From Cochliopodium minus (taxonomy: Eukaryota > Discosea > Himatismenida > Cochliopodiidae): a stretch of DNA of 31,141 nucleotides. This document shows, in pieces, positions 3,792 to 31,141 of the stretch; within the stretch, counting starts at the first letter, position 1; each line of letters opens with the position of its first letter. The notes under the pieces were generated by a model. It was not told the DNA's origin. It did not search any database and saw only the letters and a program-made list of their open reading frames with translations. The translations under genes and the position numbers were made by a program. The DNA lies in contig JAMYWO010000322.1 in assembly GCA_024220525.1 (NCBI GenBank), forward strand, positions 2,881-34,021. The letters are read 5' to 3'.

Positions 3792-6700
3792 ATGGAGCAA
3801 ATAGAACAATTATGTCAGACAGCATTTACAGAAACAAATAAAGAATTGAGAATTCAAGCAGAGAATAAATTGAATTCTATCATTACCATCCAAAATATAC
3901 CCCAATTACAACTTACTTTATCCAACAGCCAAAATCAACAAACATTGCATTATATGGCTAAATCCCTGATTAATTTAGTAACAACCAATTGGAAATTATT
4001 GAATATTCAACAAAAACTTGCAATAAGTAAACAAAATGAACCATTTTTAATTTATTATTTTTTGGAATAATTTAATTATTTGATCATACATACGATTAAT
4101 ATACTAATTAACAAATGATAATGATTGCCATACTGATACGAACATATCCTTTTTTATTTGAGTTTATATAAAATCATTCTTTCTTTGTTATCGCTCATTT
4201 AATCATTTACCCTATTATTTTTAAAAAAAGGAAACATGGGACTAACATTTCTTGCAAATAGATACAATACAGTATCCAAACCTATCTTGATATTAATATG
4301 TGAATTGATAGCAAGAATAACCAAATTAGGATTGATAGAAAATGAAGAATTGAATGATATAACATCACAAGCATCCAAATTCTTTCAGGTATCAATTATT
4401 TTTTTTGCTATTTGAAAATGATTACTTGTACAAATAATTTATTGCGCAATTATTAATTAATTAAATAATTTACTTTTTTTTTTCTAAAAATTATTTTTTA
4501 ATTATAATTAGTCAGGACAACACTTAACTGTTGGTTTTTTATTATATACAACCCTAGTACATGAAGTAGATACGATGTTTCCCACTCACACATTATCGTA
4601 TCACAGAAAAATAGCGATAGCGTTCAGAGATCAAGCTTTGTCCAACATTTTTTCTTTGGGAGTCAATTTTGTGAAGCAAATAAAGTCGATACCTGAAAAC
4701 ATGAGAAAAATAATCGCAGAGAAAGCTTCTGATCTTTGTTTTCGCTGTTTGTCTTATGATTTCATTGGCACTTCTCCTGATGATTCTATTGATGAAATTG
4801 GGTAAAAATAAAAATATAATAATTTTTTTAAAAATAAAGTAAAAATTATAAAACAACACAGCTAAAACAGAAATAATAATAGTGATCATAATAATAGAAT
4901 TAATTTTTTTTTTAAATACAAATCCAAAAAAAAAAATTTAATAAAAGTAAATTAAAATTTAAATCATTCAATAAAAGAAATTTCAAAAACAATTCAAAAT
5001 TTAAATAAAAATTAAAAAAATAAAATAAAAATAAAAAATAAAAAATAATGAAATATTAAAATTATAATTTAAACATTATAAAAATAAAAAAAAAATTAAC
5101 AAATTAATTTTTTTTTGAAATAGTACAATACAAACACCAAAGACATGGAAGTCGTATTTTGAAGAAGAAAACATTTTGAGTCATTTTTTTGATTTGTACA
5201 CTATCACCATGTCTCACTCCACTCTCCGTTGCCTGGGTCACATCGCTGCTACCAGAATCACTCTCTTCACCACTACTTTAACCAAAAATAATTTTTTGAA
5301 CACTTTAATCAAAGGTTTGGGAAACATTATGTCCAACAAAATCGGTATATCTTTTTTTTAGATTTTTTGAAATTTTTATCCTTTATTTATTTTATTTCAT
5401 CATTTGATATTTTTGTTTGCTTCTTTTTGTTTTTGTTTTCATTTTTTATTTTTTTGTTGATTTACGTAGATTCATTTTTATTTAATTTAATTTAGTATTT
5501 TACATATTTGTTTTTATTATTTTTTTTATTAAATTTCTTGAAAATATTTAATTTTTTTGTTTAAATTATTTTTGATTAATATGTTAATAATTAATATTTT
5601 TATTTTCAATTTATAACAGATTTTTGATTTTTGCTTATTACAAAAATAAATATTATTTTCATTTTTATTTTTAAAAATTTGTTAAATTTATTTGTATTTT
5701 TTAGGACTTGGAGAGGTAATGTTACATCATGAATTTTGTAGATTGCTTACGAGACTTAAATCGAATTTTCCAATGAAATTGATAGTGTCAACAGAAGCAT
5801 TCAAAGTGTTTCTTCCTGTTTTGACTCAATTCACCATACAAACTTTTCAGTCTTGGCAGTTTTCTCCTCACAGCATTTATTATTTATTAGAACTGTGGAG
5901 GGAAATGATCAAAGGTGATACTAAACAAAAATTAAAAATAAAAAACAAGAATTTTTAAGAATAAAAATAAAATAAAATAAAAAAACCAAATAAAAATAAA
6001 TAAAAAAACTAAAATGAAAAATAGAAATTAAACAAACATAAATTAACAAAATTTAAAAATAAAATTAAATATTAAAAATAATATCATCAATAAGTAAAAT
6101 AAGCAAAAAAGAAATATTAAAACTTTTTTTTTAAAATTTTTTTTATAGGATCAAACTTTGTAGAAGAAAATGACAAAACGTTTGTGTGCCAATACGCATC
6201 ACAATTAATACAAGCATACACGCAATCGCGCATTCAAAGTGTGACTAACATCATACAAAACGATTCGATAGAAGATCCCTTAGAAAACGAAAATTTGTTA
6301 GAGGAGGAAATAAAATCATTACCTCCGCTTATGAGATGCCAATATGAGCCTATAAGTATTTATTTAAAGGGCGTTTTTGAACCTTTAGCTAAAAATTTCA
6401 TCATGTGTGTTCAAAGTGTTGTAAATAATAACAATAATTCTCCTCAAAAAGTTGTTTCTCCCTCTCAGTTGGCTTTGATTGAAGGGCAGTTAACATGGGT
6501 CGTTTATATGATTGGTTGTGCTATTGGAGGTAAAAAAAAACTTTTGAATCAAATTATTTATAATAATATGGATTAGTTTTAAAAATAAAAACAAAAATGA
6601 AAACTGTCAAAAAAATTAAAAAAAAATAATCAATTTTTGAAAGAATAAAATAAAAAATGAAAAACTAAAAAAAATAAAAGAAAAAAATGAGAATCTATCT

Positions 6701-22146: not shown

Positions 22147-24826
22147 GTAAAAAAAACTTTTTTTTTCCTTCAAAAATTTCTAATCATATTATAATTTTCG
22201 ATCAGCAATATTTTGTGTATTTGCAAATGCCCAAGAAGTAGATGGAACAAAATTGAATGCAGATATTAAAGATGTTAAAGTTGGATCAACAACTGACAGC
22301 AATGCAGTTGAAAGAGAAGAAGATGAGATTAGTTCAGAAAGATTGACATCCAAACAAAAAGATTTGTTCAAATCACAATCTGCAACTCATCAATATCAAG
22401 CAGAAGTGAATCAATTGATGAATATTATCATTAACAGTTTATATTCTAATACCGATGTATTTTTGAGAGAATTGATCTCAAATGCTTCTGATGCTTTGGA
22501 TAAAATTAGATTCATCTCCTTGTCAAATAAAGATGCTTTGAAAGGAAAACCTGAATTGGAAATTAGAATTAAAATTGATGCAAAGAACAAAATGATTCAC
22601 ATCACTGATTCTGGTGTTGGTATGACCAAAGAAGAATTAATCAAAAATTTGGGAACTATCGCCAAATCAGGAACAAAAGGTAAAAAAATTATGAATCAAT
22701 AACAAAATGAACATTATAAACAAAAAAATGTATAATTTATATTTTTTCTAATTTAAAAAAAAAAAAAAAAAAATTAGATTTTATGAACAAATTGAAAGAA
22801 CAAAAACAAGATGCATCTTCTTTGATTGGTCAATTTGGTGTGGGATTTTACTCTTCTTTTCTTGTTGCAGATAAAGTAACAGTAATCTCAAAACACTATG
22901 ATAGTGAAAAACAATACATCTGGGAATCTGATGCAGGACAAAACTTTTTTGTTTCAGAAGATCCAAGAGGGAACACTCTTATAAGAGGGACACAAATCAC
23001 ACTTCACGTGAAAGAAGAACACTATGAATTATTCGAAAATGAGAAAATTGAAAATTTGTTGAAGAAATTCAGTGAATTTATCGATTTTCCAATTTACCTT
23101 TGGAAGAGTTTTCAAGAAGTAGAAGATATTCCTTTAACAGAAGAAGAAATTAACAAAATCAGAGAAGAAAGAAAAGAAAAAAGAGAAAAAGAAAAAGCAG
23201 AGAAAAAATCAGAAGAAGAAGTAGAAATGGGAAAAGACGACTCTAAAGAAGAGGAAGAGGAAGAAGAAGAAAAAGATATTCCTAAAACCAGATCTGAAAA
23301 GAAAACAGTGTACAGATGGGAATTAACCAACACAAACAAACCAATTTGGACTCGTGAAAAATCAAGCATCACGGAAGAAGATTACAAGTCTTTCTACAGA
23401 GCTCTCACCAAGGATACAGAAGATCCTCAAACTTTTACTCATTTCAACGCAGAAGGAAGTGTAAACTTTAAAAGTATTTTGTACATCCCTAAACATCCTC
23501 CTTCCAACATGTTTGAGATGAATTACAAAAAGGATGGTTTGAAATTGTACGTCAGAAGAGTTTTCATCACTGATGATTTCTTTGATGTTTTACCTACTTG
23601 GTTAGCTTTCCTCAAAGGTGTAGTTGATAGTGAAGATATGCAATTAAATGTTTCCAGAGAAATTTTGCAACAAACCAAATCTTTGAATGTCCTCAAAAAA
23701 AAGATTGTTCGTAAGGCTATCGGAATGATGGTAAAAAAACAACCAAAAAAAAAAATAAACTTAATTTAATACATTTCATACATTTCATACACTTAACTTT
23801 GATCTAATACATTTCATACACTTTGATTTAATACATTTCATACACTTAATACATTTAATTTAATAAACTTAAAATTTGATACATTTAATTTGAAATTAAG
23901 ATTTATTTTTAAATTTTAAAATTTAGCAATCAATTGCAAAGAATGAAACAGAATATACGAAATTCTGGGAAAATTATAGTAAAGCAATAAAGTATGGAAT
24001 CCTTCAAGATGTTCCAAATCAAATCAGATTGGCAAAGTTGTTGCGTTTTCCTTCCTCTTTCAACACCACAGTAGGAGCATACACCTCCCTTTCTGACTAT
24101 GTATCCAGATTGAAAAAGAATCAAACAAACATTTTGTATCTTGCAGGAGATAACGCAGAGAAATTATCAAAATCTCCTCTCGCTGAATCTGCTTTGGAAA
24201 AAGGGTATGAAATATTGTATTTGAATGATGCTATTGATGAATATGCAATTCAAGCTTTACGTACTTTTGATGCAAAGTATAAATTTGCTAATTTGCAAAA
24301 AGAAGACGTTAAACTCGAAGAGGATGAAAAAGATGAAGAAAAGAAAGAAGCAGACAAAAAGAGACAAGAAGCTTTGGACGAACAATTCAAAGAATTGAAA
24401 ACTTTTTTGAAAGAAAAATTGGCAGGAAAAATTTCAAGAGTAACTTTGTCTGAAAGACTCACCAAATCTCCTGCTGCTTTGGTTGCTGCTACTTATGGTA
24501 TGTCTGCCAACATGGAACGTATTTTAAAAGCTCAAGCTCTCGGAAATACAGGTATCTCCAAATCTAATCCTTCTTTGGAAGTGAATCCAAATCATCCCCT
24601 CATCACCGAGTTGAATAACAAGATTGCTATTGAAGGGAAAGATTCTCCTTTGATCGCTGATGTTGCAGAACTTTTGTATCATACCTCTGCTCTCCTTTCT
24701 GGTTATCCTGTTGATGAACCTGGTCTTTTTGCCGAAAGCATCCACAACCTTTTGAACTCTGTCATGGGTATTGAATCTAAATCTTCCCCAACCCCTTCTA
24801 CCACTGAAAGTCACGATGAACTTTAA
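22095..24826 (+). CDS. Endoplasmic reticulum HSP90 (GRP94/endoplasmin type)
   Basis: Four exons: 22095-22146, 22206-22679, 22778-23730, 23927-24826 (792 aa). Exon 1 (52 nt) starts the signal peptide [18 protein letters not shown], which runs on to a likely cleavage after FANA-Q (residues 26-27). The N-domain ATPase has [14 protein letters not shown] (catalytic Glu about 106), DSGVGM (152-157) and [12 protein letters not shown] Glu/Lys-rich charged linker follows. The middle domain has [17 protein letters not shown] and NVSREILQQ (catalytic Arg about 469). The C-terminus is SHDEL followed by TAA, so it carries the HDEL retrieval signal. The signal peptide and HDEL together place it in the ER lumen, where GRP94 folds secreted and membrane proteins in an ATP cycle. 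The length is close to human GRP94 (803). It shares its upstream region with AlaRS. Confidence 0.96.
23765..23895. repeat. Short tandem array in ER HSP90 intron 3
   Basis: Repeated TAATACATTTCATACACTT-like units, about five imperfect copies, inside the intron 23731-23926. It has no coding potential. Confidence 0.7.
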
Positions 24827-25035: not shown

Positions 25036-27639
25036 ATGAGTGAAGAAGTAATCAAAGAATTGATAAAGAATTTGGATAGTTTAACCAATGTAGATTCATT
25101 AAACAAAATATGGATGAATTGTTTTAATCAAAAGAAAAATTTTGATTTATTACCTGCCCTACTTTCCAAAGGAGCAGATCCAAACCTCACCAATAATTTT
25201 GGAGAATCTTTGCTTCATCATTTTAGTGAACATGATGATTTAAAGAATGTGGAATTATTAATTTCTCATAAAGCCAAAGTAGATTTGGCTGATAACAATG
25301 GAAACACATCAATTCACAATTTATGCAAATTATTAGATAATATACCATTAGATACTCTTAAACTATTGATCCCTCATGCAGATCTAAATTTAAAGAACAA
25401 AGAAAATAAGACACCTCTCCATCTTTCTTGTGAAAATAAAAACTCTTCATCAGTGTTGATAAAATTGCTCATTGAATCAAAAAGTGGAGTAGAAAATCAA
25501 GACAATTTCCTTAAATCTCCTTTGCATTCTTATTCTCAAATCCCATCCAAGAAAGAAATTAGTATCTTTAATCTTTTATTAGATTCCAAGAGTGATATCA
25601 ACTTGAAAGATAAATCTGGTGTAAAAAAACTTTAATAATTTAAATTAATTTATTTTTTTTATTTTTATTGAATTTATTTAATTTATTTTCATTTTTTTAA
25701 TTGAATTTAATGAATTATTTAATTTTTTAAAAATATTAGATGACTCCTTTGCACTACATTTGCGTCAACAAATACGCAAACGAAGAAATGATAGAGGTAT
25801 TATAATTTAAACTTTTTTGTTTTTTATAATTTATTATTTTTATTCATTTTTTTATTGTATTTTAAATTAATTATTTTTTATTTTTGTATTTTATTTTTAT
25901 TTTTTTTCATTTTTTTAATTCATTTTTATTTTTTAAAAAAAGATGTTTTTAAAAAGAGGAGCGGAGACAAATATAAGTGCGAATAATGGATGGACACCAA
26001 TTTTTTCATTGATGAGCGGAGATTTTGCAAGTTTGGAAATGGTTCGCAAATTTCATCATTACAATACCAACTTTTCTTATCAAACTCCCCCTGGCAAAAA
26101 CATCCTCATCTTTTCTTGTATCTTTTTCCCCTCCTTTTTTTCATCTCTCTTTATTATATCTTTATTATATCTTTATTATATCTATCTCTTTATTATTACA
26201 TCTTAATTATCTTTATTATCTCTCTCTTTATTATTTCTCTTTATTATTTCTTTATTAACATCTCTCTTTATTATCTCTCTTTATTATCTTTATTATCTCT
26301 TTTATTATAAATATTAATTTTAAACATCAATTCTAAATATTAATTTTAAATATTAATTTTAAATATTAATTTTAAATATTAATTTTAAATATTAATTTTA
26401 AATATTGATATAATATTAATTTTAAATATTAATTATAAATATTGTATTTATTTTATTTTTTTCAAAAAAATAAAAAGGTGAGTTAGATGGAAGACAATAT
26501 TTAAATATGGATAATAGTGTAAATTTTGAAAAGAAAAGGGAATACTATGATATCATCCTTTTCTTTCTCTCCTCTAATGTTGATGTCAACACCTCCACCA
26601 GACATGTATTACCCCCTCTCCCTCCCTTTATCTTTATTTGCATTTATTTTATTTTATTTTAATTTTTTTATTTATTTTACTTCATTTTATTTTATTATTT
26701 CTTTTTAAAAATTTACTTATCTCCTAATTATTTATTGTGAATATTTATTTAATTTCTCATATATATTTTTTTATTTGTATTTTATAAATATTTATTTATT
26801 ATGTATTTACGTATTTATTAATATTTATGAATTATTTAATTAATAAAGAAATTAACAAATTTTATTTATTTATTTGTTTTTTTGTTTGTAAAAAGGGGAT
26901 GACAGCATTGGATTGTTCGATATCAAATTCAAAGTGTAGTTCAAAAATAACAGAATTGTTGATTTCAAAAGGAGCAGATGTGAACACCCAAAACAAAAAT
27001 GGAAAAGACATCCTCTTCAATTCTTTATCTGGTATCATTACTCCTCCTTTCCTCCTCCTTTTAAAATTGTTAATTTATTCATTTCCTTATTTAATATTTA
27101 TTTATTTAATTTAATATTGATTTCTTAATTTAATTTTTATTTATTTTATTGATTTTATTTCATTTTTTAATTAATCAATTAATCAAAAAAAAAGGAGGAG
27201 ACATGGATGTGGGATTTTTTGGACCATATTTGGAAGAAATGGAAAGAAAAATGAGAATGGTGTTTGAAAAAGGATTCAAACATATAAACGAAGTGAATGA
27301 TGATTTTCAAACCATTTTGCATTTCGCTTGCAAATATTCCTTAAACGATGTCCCTCTCATCATCATTCGTCTTTTGTTGAATTACGGTTTTGATCCTTAT
27401 CAAAAAGTAAATTCTTTTTTATTTTTAAATTTTTTGTGTTGTAATTTTTTTGTAAAAAGGACTATTTGGGAAAAACACCATATGATTACTTGGAAAAAAA
27501 CAAGTTTAGAGATCAAGAAGAAGAGTTGAATGATTTGAAAGTATTCTTTGAGAAACATTACAAACCTCTCAAACAAGATAGTAAAGATGATAAGCTTGAC
27601 ACAAACAATGATTTAAACAAAATTAGTCAAAACAAATAA
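25036..27639 (+). CDS. Ankyrin-repeat protein
   Basis: Seven exons: 25036-25620, 25740-25796, 25943-26117, 26478-26605, 26896-27031, 27195-27406, 27460-27639 (1473 nt, 490 aa, TAA stop). Ankyrin units are spread through the whole protein: LLSKGADPNLTNNFGESLLH, LLISHKAKVDLADNNGNTSI, NKENKTPLHLSCENKNSSS, LLLDSKSDINLKDKSG joined to MTPLHYICVNKYA, FLKRGAETNISANNGWTPIF, FFLSSNVDVNTSTRH joined to GMTALDCSI, and LLISKGADVNTQNKNGKD. A final charged helical tail (LEKNKFRDQEEELNDLKVFF) follows. Several repeats span exon joins, which supports the splicing. No enzyme domain, SOCS box or membrane segment accompanies the repeats, so it is probably a scaffold or inhibitor of unknown partner. Intron 3 is the longest and is made of simple repeats. 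Confidence 0.88.
26145..26454. repeat. Two adjoining simple-sequence tracts in ankyrin-gene intron 3
   Basis: The first part (about 26145-26307) is built from TTTATTATCTCTC/TTATATC variants. The second (about 26308-26454) is a 14-bp tandem repeat TTAATTTTAAATAT with at least seven copies, several exact. Together they fill most of intron 26118-26477. Confidence 0.85.
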
Positions 27640-27666: not shown

Positions 27667-29193
27667 TTAATTCTCAGTTTGTCTATTTGATTCTTCGTTG
27701 TAAGTTTTAGAATGGGTGCTCATTTGAGTATCAAAAGATTTTTTGATCTTTTTGAGAGGGTTTTTGTAAAAGATAGAAATAGAAATGAGAGCCACTGCCA
27801 AAGAAAAACTACCAGTCACTGGTACCATGAAAAATAGATTTGCATTTTTTTGTACTGTTGGAATTATACCTGCAATGAACCCGATGTTTCCTGTTTGATT
27901 TTTTTTATTTTTAAAAAAAAGTTTTATTACAAATAAATTGAAAGTTACCCATGAAAGCAGCTATTTCCATTGCCAAAATAGAAACACCTATTCTCAAATA
28001 ATCAAATTTTTTAGATTTTTCTCCACTACTTTTGATTTCAGAAAGTTTTCTAAACTTGTTTAGGAAATAAATAGATACTTTTTTAAAAAAATAATCAAAA
28101 AAATTTTTTATCAAAAAAAAAAAATTCTACAAGGATAAAACACAATATGCATAAAAAGGAAAGAAGGGAAAAGGTATCCATAGGCATAGTTTAGATTTGG
28201 TTCCCATTTTGATAATAGAACAAAATAAACAATAAATAATGAAGTAAAAACCAAAACATTTATCAAGTAGATTCCCAAACAAAAAATGTAATAAAATTTC
28301 ATTTCCCATCCTTTATTATTTTTTTAATTAAAGACTTAATTTTAATTTTAAAAACTAGATACCTCTTTCTTGAAATAAAATGTAGAGAAGATTCAAGCTA
28401 ATCATGGTGTATCCCAAGAACCTTTTTAAAAAATCATGTGAAAAAATAATTAAAAATCAAAAGTTTGATTACCCAAAAAATTCGAAAAATATGGGCAGAA
28501 TTAAACTAACAGGATAAGCAGAGAAGTAGTTATAATAAATAATTGGGTCTAATTAAGAATTATTTTTTAAAAAAAATTCATTAAAGAAATTATTTTTTTA
28601 CCAAACTAAATGTTTACAAAAAAAAAAAAAAAATATTAAAGAATAAAAAATTTTAATGAAATTTTTTATTTTACCCAAGAAACAAAAATAAAAAGATTTC
28701 CGACAAAAAAGAAAGAGATGTTAATGAGTGCAAAACTGGGTCTGCATTTATCTTTGATTATATATTGTACAATCCTTACAGATGACATCACAAGAGATAT
28801 CTTTTGAAAAAAAGATTAACAAAAAAAAAAAAAATTAAATTTTTTTTTTAAAAATTATACAGCTAACAATGTTAAATTGAAGATTTGGAAAAATATCACC
28901 ATCCCTGAAATTAAAAATAATTTTATTTTATTTTATTTAATTTATTTCATTTTTTTTATTTTTATTTTTTAAAAAATTACCTTTATTTAGTTTTTCAAAA
29001 CTTGTTCCAATGTTTCCGAATTGTGCAAATACAACATTGTTGGGGGAGAAAACAGAAGAATGTTTGATGAAAAGATCGAGTTCAAAACAATTTACTGGTA
29101 TTTTTATTTTTTTAAATGTCTCCCCTCTTTCTCTTATTCTACATAATATATCCGCACTTTTTGAAACCAATAAAACACCTATTGCTCCCAAAT
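27667..29193 (-). CDS. PA-like domain plus seven membrane segments, 5' end missing
   Basis: Minus-strand exons: 28981-29193, 28861-28904, 28675-28800, 28602-28605, 28473-28548, 28363-28421, 28131-28310, 27949-28077, 27667-27890 (about 351 aa visible, TAA stop). All phases match. The visible N-terminal part (GAIGVLLVSKSADILCRI, then KIPVNCFELD) resembles the second half of a protease-associated (PA) domain. About seven hydrophobic segments follow, starting near MVIFFQIFNLTLLA, FALINISFFFVGNLFIFVSW, FSAYPVSLILPIFFEFFG, FYYIFCLGIYLINVLVF, YLFPSFLFMHIVFYPC, ILAMEIAAFMGNIGF and LFFMVPVTGSFSLAVAL. A short polar C-terminal tail ends the protein. The layout suggests a lumenal or extracellular PA domain on a receptor-like seven-helix bundle. 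It lacks the YD/GxGD aspartyl motifs expected of SPPL proteases. I do not recognise the family. Earlier exons are lost at the N at 29302. Confidence 0.7.
28602..28605 (-). other. 4-nt microexon (TTTG)
   Basis: It lies between AG (28606-28607) and GT (28600-28601) on the minus strand, with an intron of about 69 nt before it and one of about 51 nt after it, both T-rich with GTAAAA donors. The exon before ends in phase 0 (VSW) and the exon after is only open for the rest of its length in phase 1, so a linker of 1 mod 3 bases is required. TTTG gives SW-F-DPIIYYNYF. Confidence 0.65.
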
Positions 29194-29301: not shown

Positions 29302-29302
29302 N
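29302..29302. other. Assembly gap (single N), contig B to contig C
   Basis: This ambiguous base follows about 80 bases of (ATTTT)n low complexity in an intron or flank of the membrane-protein gene. The sequence changes abruptly in composition on the other side. Confidence 0.8.
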
Positions 29303-31141
29303 ACTATTGCTTGCATCACCTCATTCTTCATCTCTAAACACAACAACATCATCTGGAAACAAACTCTTGAAAATAACAACAGAGGACATGGAAGATAAGA
29401 ATTATTCACCAACCTCTTCAATGAAGAACATTCGCTTATTAATTTTGACAATAAATTGTCAACCTTTTCTTCTAAGAATCACATGAAATTTGTCGAAAAA
29501 AACAGACTCATTTCAATCCTTGGTCAAAAAATTGTTGACAAGTTAATAATAATAACAAAGATGATACCTGTTAGAATGCCGAAAAGTCCTCCCACAGAAC
29601 TAAGGTGGGATCCTATGAGAATCTCTATTCTAACAGTAAACGTACAAATAATCTAGATTCCAGTTTAAGAATGGAACTCCAAAAGATGACCAAATAGAAT
29701 GCTGGACACTCACAAATGGTACAGAACAAGTCCAACAACATTGTGCCACTGCTTTACAGAGTATCAATCAGATTCTTTTCAATTCCTTCTAGACTGCTAT
29801 GGTAGAAAGGTTGATTTCACTCCACAACCAACAACTTTCACCTTTGAAGCAAATCTTAGTTAAGAAAATTTGAGAATGATCTTTTATTCATGCTAACAGA
29901 AATTTTGTTAGAAAACATCTTCAAATTGGAAAAATTATCCTTAATTGTTCTTTTGAATTTCACAAAAATAATTTTTAATTTTTATCAATTTTTTTGATTG
30001 AAAATTTTTATCCGTCCCTGGTAACAAAGTGAACAATTTGAAAGTCAAAAAGAGTCTGCTGAATTCGTGGATTGTCAAAATTAATGATACTTCTTTCATT
30101 GATTTAAACTTATTGGCAAACAAGATTCTCTTTCTTTCATCAGAAACATCAACCAAGTAACCAAAAAAAGTTTTTGGATCTTTTGTAACAATGATAGTAC
30201 TGGACCTACTTTTCATGGCGTCGCCACTCTCATTCCTAAAAGACTCTTTAACAAACCATTTCACAGAGTAATCGAAATGGGAAACCATCTCTTTGAAAAA
30301 GAACCACAACTTTTCTTTCAAACTTGTCTCCTAATCTAACTCCAACCTAAAAAGCGAATCTTTCAAATTTCTGAAAAATACTTCAATGATTCTATTTTCA
30401 TCTCCAATCTAAATGAAAGACTCAAAGAATCAAAGAAGAAACATGGATCCTATCAAGAAAAATTGCAGTACATGATTGATGAAGCAATAGAAAATAACAA
30501 AAGAACTTAAAAGAGAAATAAAGTCAAAACTGCAAAAAAAGATGAGAAAAATTTGGAAGAATGTTGAAAAGGTGAAAAAGGAAAAAGAGGGGAAAAATGA
30601 AAAATTAGATCTTGAATCTCAACAAAATGATAATAAAACTAAAGTTTGAAAATAATGTTGACAATTTTGAAGTAGAAATCTAAGAACTGTCAAAACAAAT
30701 TGATGATGTTTTCTGGAAAGAAATTGAAGAATTAAAGTGGAAGAAAAAAATTGATTTTGAAAAGATAAGGAGCAAACAAGATCTACTCAATGCACTTCAA
30801 GTTTAAAACTTCAATCAAATCAAAACTTGAGTATCTCTTTAAATTAAAACTGAGAAAATTTAAATTAAAAAAATTGAAAATTTGTTTTGCAAAAATTTAA
30901 ATGAATAACAAATTAGTTTGTTGAGAGGTTGATTCTGTAGGGATAACGACAATTTTTGCAGCATAAGAAGTTCGACTTGGAAACTGAACCAAATCGAGCA
31001 TGAGCTCAACAAAAAATTTTATTTTCCTATTCATCAAGAAGAAATGTAGTTCAAAAGAAATATCTGTTTAAATCTATTAACTTGTCAAATTTTAAATTTT
31101 GGAAACATTTGCCAACAAATCAATAGTAAATAGATATGATC
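29303..31141 (-). mobile_element. Degenerate retroelement-like fossil (family uncertain)
   Basis: This contig has exon-like base composition throughout, unlike the spacers, yet neither strand holds a long intact gene. The best-preserved part, 29941-30321 on the minus strand, resembles a retroelement RNase H region: a TIIVTKDPKTFFGYLV block in the place of the usual TDAS motif, then KFKSMKEVSLILTIHEFSRL, then a TDK motif. Lys/Glu-rich frames lie further on (30360-30640). No terminal repeats can be seen because both edges are contig ends. It is clearly broken, with many interruptions. The state of decay suggests an old copy or a consensus of several copies. The assembly overlap at its right edge agrees with a multi-copy sequence. 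LTR, DIRS-like or other retroelement membership cannot be decided by eye. Confidence 0.4.
31065..31141 (+). repeat. 77-bp exact direct repeat, copy 2
   Basis: Identical to 16426-16502 and ending exactly at the last base of the window. The preceding base is C here and N in copy 1. Confidence 0.95.

Follow-up and report, generated by a model that had tools for sequence, protein, structure and literature searches.

The tetranucleotide TTTG at positions 28605 to 28602 on the minus strand of the analyzed window (a stretch of 31,141 nt of the Cochliopodium minus genome) is very probably a genuine coding exon of four nucleotides that would be included in the mRNA of its gene. This reading is supported by the reading frame, the splice sites, and the intron lengths, and above all by two homologous 4-nt exons and by 11 loci of the same family in which the corresponding codons are uninterrupted. 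Because the same tiny exon is present in two distant sister genes, TTTG is very probably real and needed for the protein. Most likely, it is constitutive, i.e., part of every functional mRNA, although this is less certain than the reality of the exon itself.

The gene and its probable four-base exon

The gene is encoded on the minus strand, from position 29193 to position 27667, where nine predicted exons, including TTTG, join as one open frame of 350 residues with a terminal stop. Its features, all on the minus strand and listed in the order of transcription, are as follows:

28981 to 29193, minus strand: first visible exon, 213 nt, PA-like part; acceptor set by comparison with the paralogue C65
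28861 to 28904, minus strand: exon B, 44 nt
28675 to 28800, minus strand: exon before the microexon, 126 nt; contains the second hydropathy peak, ends ...FIFVSW, and was aligned with the paralogues
28606 to 28674, minus strand: upstream intron, 69 nt, GTAAAA...TTTAG, phase 0
28602 to 28605, minus strand: predicted microexon TTTG, 4 nt, in which TTT encodes Phe and G opens the Asp codon (G/AC); homologous to ATTG in C65 and C4
28549 to 28601, minus strand: downstream intron, 53 nt, GTAAAA...ATTAG, phase 1
28473 to 28548, minus strand: exon after the microexon, 76 nt; starts with (G)AC CCA, the Asp-Pro motif (DPIIYYNY)
28363 to 28421, minus strand: exon E, 59 nt
28131 to 28310, minus strand: exon F, 180 nt
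27949 to 28077, minus strand: exon G, 129 nt
27667 to 27890, minus strand: last exon, 224 nt, with the stop codon

On the minus strand, the sequence at the microexon reads ...GTTTCTTGG/GTAAAATAAA...AACATTTAG/TTTG/GTAAAAAAAT...CTTAATTAG/ACCCAATT..., which corresponds to the predicted spliced sequence ...TTTCTTGG-TTTG-ACCCAATT.... With its 4 nt, TTTG lies far below the upper size limit for microexons (27 to 30 nt). Its borders (TTTAG/TTTG/GTAAAA) are canonical, and the flanking introns of 69 and 53 nt are normal for the family, as the ordinary introns of the window gene and of the paralogues C65 and C4 measure 49 to 76 nt (n = 10 modeled); read as a single intron, the stretch between the two large exons would span 126 nt. 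The initial annotation, which placed TTTG between canonical AG and GT dinucleotides with T-rich introns on either side, agrees with the sequence of the minus strand, and its proposal that TTTG supplies the frame shift between two coding exons is borne out as well: the preceding exon ends in phase 0, the following exon is open only with a linker whose length is 1 modulo 3, as is that of TTTG, and without TTTG a stop appears as the 16th codon past the junction.

In a hydropathy scan of the plain Kyte-Doolittle type, as opposed to a trained predictor, the product displays seven helix-length peaks after the PA-like part and one more inside it. The microexon contributes residues 128 and 129, right after the second peak (residues 107 to 125). 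The earlier label of a “PA/seven-helix” gene is partly supported by the seven peaks and by the matches of two of five paralogue pieces that fall just under the PF02225 (PA) cut-off of 23.9 (C107a, E = 4.9e-5, 23.8 bits; C107b, E = 3.6e-4, 21.0 bits); the window protein itself has no Pfam match under E = 0.09, PF02225 included. The C43 piece gave no PF02225 match, and one paralogue piece showed a weak match to cytochrome b561 (E = 0.0038, below the cut-off).

No exons were found 5' of position 29193. A single N is located at position 29302, beside a long TTTTA repeat and upstream of the first visible exon, and further 5' exons were perhaps lost at an assembly gap. Beyond the N, at positions 29303 to 31141, inspection by eye revealed coding-like stretches with many stops, possibly a decayed gene. 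On the other side of the gene, positions 25037 to 27639 of the plus strand carry a gene judged ankyrin-repeat-like by eye, which has several T-rich introns, including one with simple-repeat tracts at about 26140 to 26440; the neighboring gene that ends at position 24826 encodes HSP90, with endoplasmin as the best match of solved structure. The G+C content of the window ranges from 18 to 38% by kilobase, and scans of the window for Rfam families (at the gathering threshold) and for tRNAs came back empty. A search with an exact primer pattern for small-subunit rRNA likewise gave no match.

Homologous exons and uninterrupted codons in the family

A search with the window protein against its own genome (assembly G000, 44.65 Mb in 598 contigs) returned at least 25 matching places, which were grouped into 13 loci; the later addition of C32 brought the family to at least 14. 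Two weak matches, C114 (E = 0.035) and C43 (E = 0.072), were accepted for their aligned motif. A TTTG-type exon is found in 3 of these 14 loci, namely, in the window gene and in C65 and C4, which are located on other contigs. In C65 (sequence L008), ATTG has an upstream intron of 53 nt and a downstream one of 62 nt, and the neighboring exons end with ...CTATACATG and start with ATCCAGTTGCTTATTGG, respectively; the corresponding introns of C4 (L020, reverse strand) measure 55 and 60 nt on either side of ATTG, between ...GCTACTTGG and ATCCCATGGCTTATTGG. Both have the form AG/ATTG/GTAAAA and occupy the same codon with the same phases as TTTG, giving the products M-I-D-P and W-I-D-P, so that all three carriers yield x-D-P with identical phases. 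As the proteins of C65 and C4 are only 29% and 36% identical to that of the window gene, the 4-nt linker and its phases have persisted through the change of most other features.

In the other 11 loci (C246, two in C234, C43, C81, two in C107, two in C51, C114, and C32), the codons are unbroken: one open frame encodes the Asp together with the residue before it and the one after it, which is Pro except in C114 (Ala), as in AWIDPFSYW, YAIDPLGYW, NLDPIYYH, and LVDPWSYW. In the alignment of 11 rows, the D-P-x-x-Y motif has an invariant Asp, an invariant Tyr, and a nearly invariant Pro, and the Asp is present in all 14 loci (in 11 by alignment and, by eye, in C234b, C51b, and C32). The tree, built from 11 rows with C234b, C51b, and C32 left out, separates the three carriers from the other rows by a branch with support values of 84/91, a separation equaled by 3 of 500 label shuffles; as none of its eight inner branches attains the 95/80 mark of the tool, the support for the grouping of the carriers is moderate. 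In alignments between carriers, the downstream introns score no higher than shuffled sequences (z from -1.1 to 0.8) and the upstream introns somewhat higher (z from 1.9 to 3.5), which perhaps comes from a common layout of an A run followed by a T run, or from some residual likeness.

Two details of the paralogous genes were read by eye. In C4 (L020 and L085, reverse strand), a probable GC-AG intron lies just before TTGTCATATTGG: there is no GT at this border, and a GC...AAAG intron yields the AKGVVIL reading of the family. The first exon piece of C4 more likely starts at TTGTCATATTGG, and its microexon is not affected. In C65, a probable 22-nt exon, GAACACATTTTGTTAGTACAAA, is located just before the PA exon (L084, positions 3839 to 3860, plus strand) and follows the family pattern HILLVQ.

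Chance occurrence and rival explanations

Within the 126-nt stretch of the window gene, TTTG is the sole AG-N(0-30)-GT pair, as is ATTG in the respective stretch of C65; that of C4 contains, in addition to ATTG, a 20-nt linker that is wrong for the frame. Only 1 of the 10 ordinary introns of these genes has an internal AG followed by GT, at a spacing of 19 nt. In 100,000 simulations of a 123-nt stretch under a first-order Markov model derived from the 16 introns modeled in the three genes, AG-N4-GT with both introns of at least 45 nt arose in 0.27% of the stretches and any linker of 1 to 30 nt with a length of 1 modulo 3 in 1.6%. The bare signature of paired introns is not enriched: in a sample of 55 sequences (200,637 bases), linkers of 1 to 9 nt were found in 22 places versus 51 in the reversed-sequence control. 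The signature alone therefore proves little, and raw counting was dropped as evidence. A coding-aware scan, in which the 60-nt flanks had to be open with the linker and closed without it (and which is blind to linkers that leave the frame open in their absence, such as most multiples of three), detected three places with linkers of 1 to 9 nt, precisely the three carriers, versus one in the control. The C65 and C4 loci had been fetched into the sample by homology, so that only the window part is unbiased with respect to microexons; in that part, TTTG is the only such place for linkers of up to 20 nt. Across the genome, the pattern AG[A/T]TTGGTA-N38-68-AGA[C/T]CC occurs in 21 places (10 + 11) versus none in the reversed controls, and among these places the GTAAAA donor is confined to the three carriers.

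The same scan listed six places with linkers of 10 to 20 nt versus none in the control. Two of them are sub-pieces of the 44-nt exon of C65, and the other four measure 11, 13, 14, and 16 nt (L072, positions 1208 to 1218; L056, 1396 to 1408; L055, 2068 to 2081; and L022, 177 to 192, respectively; all on the plus strand). Of the 13-, 14-, and 16-nt candidates, whose products were searched for homology, it supports only the 13-nt one, GTTTCACGGTTTG, which belongs to a mitochondrial carrier gene on contig C9; the products of the 14- and 16-nt candidates matched no Pfam family above the cut-off. With the 13-nt linker, the carrier product matches PF00153 (E = 7e-21) and carriers of solved structure (best E = 3.1e-8), whereas direct joining without it leads to a stop. 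Among the 12 domain alignments listed for the best four carriers, 11 cross the linker ungapped, the exception being the third repeat of u12621, which has a four-residue gap there; the scores of single carrier domains are weak, because carrier repeats are alike. This candidate suggests that the genome splices further microexons.

Direct joining of the large exons and retention of either or both introns were rejected, as a stop arises in all three carriers. Single GT-AG introns were enumerated for the window gene with donors from 60 nt before to 40 nt after and acceptors from 45 nt before to 60 nt after, and none of them reaches the downstream frame. When GC-AG and AT-AC introns and exon-internal sites are also allowed, 13 open joins appear on paper in the window gene, 11 in C65, and 5 in C4, as would be needed if another splice choice, such as a donor inside the preceding exon or a GC-AG or AT-AC intron, joined the large exons in frame. 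In the window gene, however, three GT-AG joins and a GC-AG join end in the wrong frame, and nine AT-AC joins cut the second helix partly or wholly, together with the Asp. In the paralogues, one AT-AC join of C4 would keep both the helix and Asp-Pro without the microexon, at the price of four extra residues (VKKK), and C65 and C4 share an open GT-AG join 23 nt inside the preceding exon, but the latter shortens the helix and changes the Asp into Tyr. Within the limited range that was enumerated, no single alternative join is open in all three carriers, and a different splice choice is barely credible.

The stretch could also be one 126-nt intron, with the frame thrown off by a homopolymer indel in the assembly or by decay of the gene into a pseudogene and with TTTG as a chance AG-N4-GT. 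In its favor, homopolymers are common here, there is an N at position 29302, and the 5' end of the gene was not found. Against it, C65 and C4, diverged paralogues located on other contigs, have linkers of identical length at the corresponding codon and with identical phases; all remaining exons of the window gene join in frame unaltered, and the supposed intron would be well above the 49 to 76 nt of the ordinary ones, all of which makes this explanation highly improbable. A further proposal accepts the exon and contradicts only its constitutive use, thereby overlapping with the preferred reading: TTTG would be optional, and its skipping would shift the frame and end the protein early, providing a regulated off-switch via mRNA decay. 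The stop that follows skipping in the window gene is what such a switch would require, and alternative use is common among neuronal microexons of animals (PMC8378409). Nevertheless, the Asp that the microexon helps encode is present in every locus of the family, and we consider an optional TTTG unlikely.

Splicing, origin, and known ultra-short exons

A constitutive TTTG would restore the frame and add Phe and the first base of the conserved Asp of the D-P-x-x-Y motif right after the second helix. Each flanking intron is ordinary in its size and splice sites, and the spliceosome would therefore most likely define each of them as a separate unit (intron definition), removing one after the other and leaving four bases between the two ligations. 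Recognition through the introns, which the initial annotation took to be required, would be a reasonable reading of this arrangement. A single origin of the exon is most likely, in an ancestor of the three paralogues that gained two introns with four bases between them; the exon would then have persisted as the identity of the proteins fell to about 30%.

A 4-nt exon kept through duplication and flanked by very short introns provides a natural test of intron definition against a lower limit of exon size, as well as of how introns a few bases apart arise. The chances appear evenly balanced that this AT-rich eukaryote, whose introns measure about 50 to 70 nt, retains ultra-short exons for constitutive use over long evolutionary times, namely, the 4-nt exon of the three paralogues and the 13-nt exon of the carrier gene. 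If it does, this would suggest that exon length under strict intron definition is essentially without a lower limit, and that two introns separated by just four bases can be gained and endure. Exons of this kind are easily missed in annotation, as noted in a survey of plant genes (PMC8831610), and predicted proteins would then be broken or frameshifted at such places.

Exons of this kind are already known, and the useful aspect of the present case is its conservation across distant paralogues combined with small introns. The statement that TTTG is among the shortest exons possible needs qualification: 4 nt is very short indeed, but 1-nt exons have been published in plants (PMC4674806, PMC8831610) and a 4-nt one in human MPC1 (PMC9929638). 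Microexons of 3 to 15 nt have been searched for in Creolimax, a unicellular relative of animals (PMC4739763); among the matches listed in our literature search, none described, by its title or the start of its abstract, a protist exon of 4 nt that is conserved among paralogues.

A close parallel is the reportedly constitutive exon of human MPC1, which, like TTTG, consists of 4 nt and is not a multiple of three; its neighboring introns are each removed by their own sites, as predicted for TTTG (PMC9929638). Both of these introns are still excised when the MPC1 exon is cut to zero, and the intronic signals on either side of it were interpreted as an exon-definition island. The MPC1 exon has been verified in RNA, whereas TTTG is known from the DNA sequence; also unlike the exon-definition island of MPC1, both introns of TTTG are short (53 and 69 nt). 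Neuronal microexons that need PRP-40 resemble TTTG in being very short and a challenge to the splicing machinery, but they are alternative and regulated. Their need for this factor is relieved by reducing the flanking introns (PMC8378409), and the introns of TTTG are short from the outset. In plants, the 1-nt exon of Arabidopsis APC11 has been explained by a proposed combination of intron definition and stepwise removal (PMC4674806), and surveyed gene copies with a 1-nt exon exist beside copies that hold the base in a larger exon (PMC8831610). The APC11 and VPS55 exons have been verified in RNA in plant genes, while the evidence for TTTG is genomic; like them, TTTG appears to be an ultra-short, frame-restoring coding exon that is found in some gene copies only (PMC4674806, PMC8831610).
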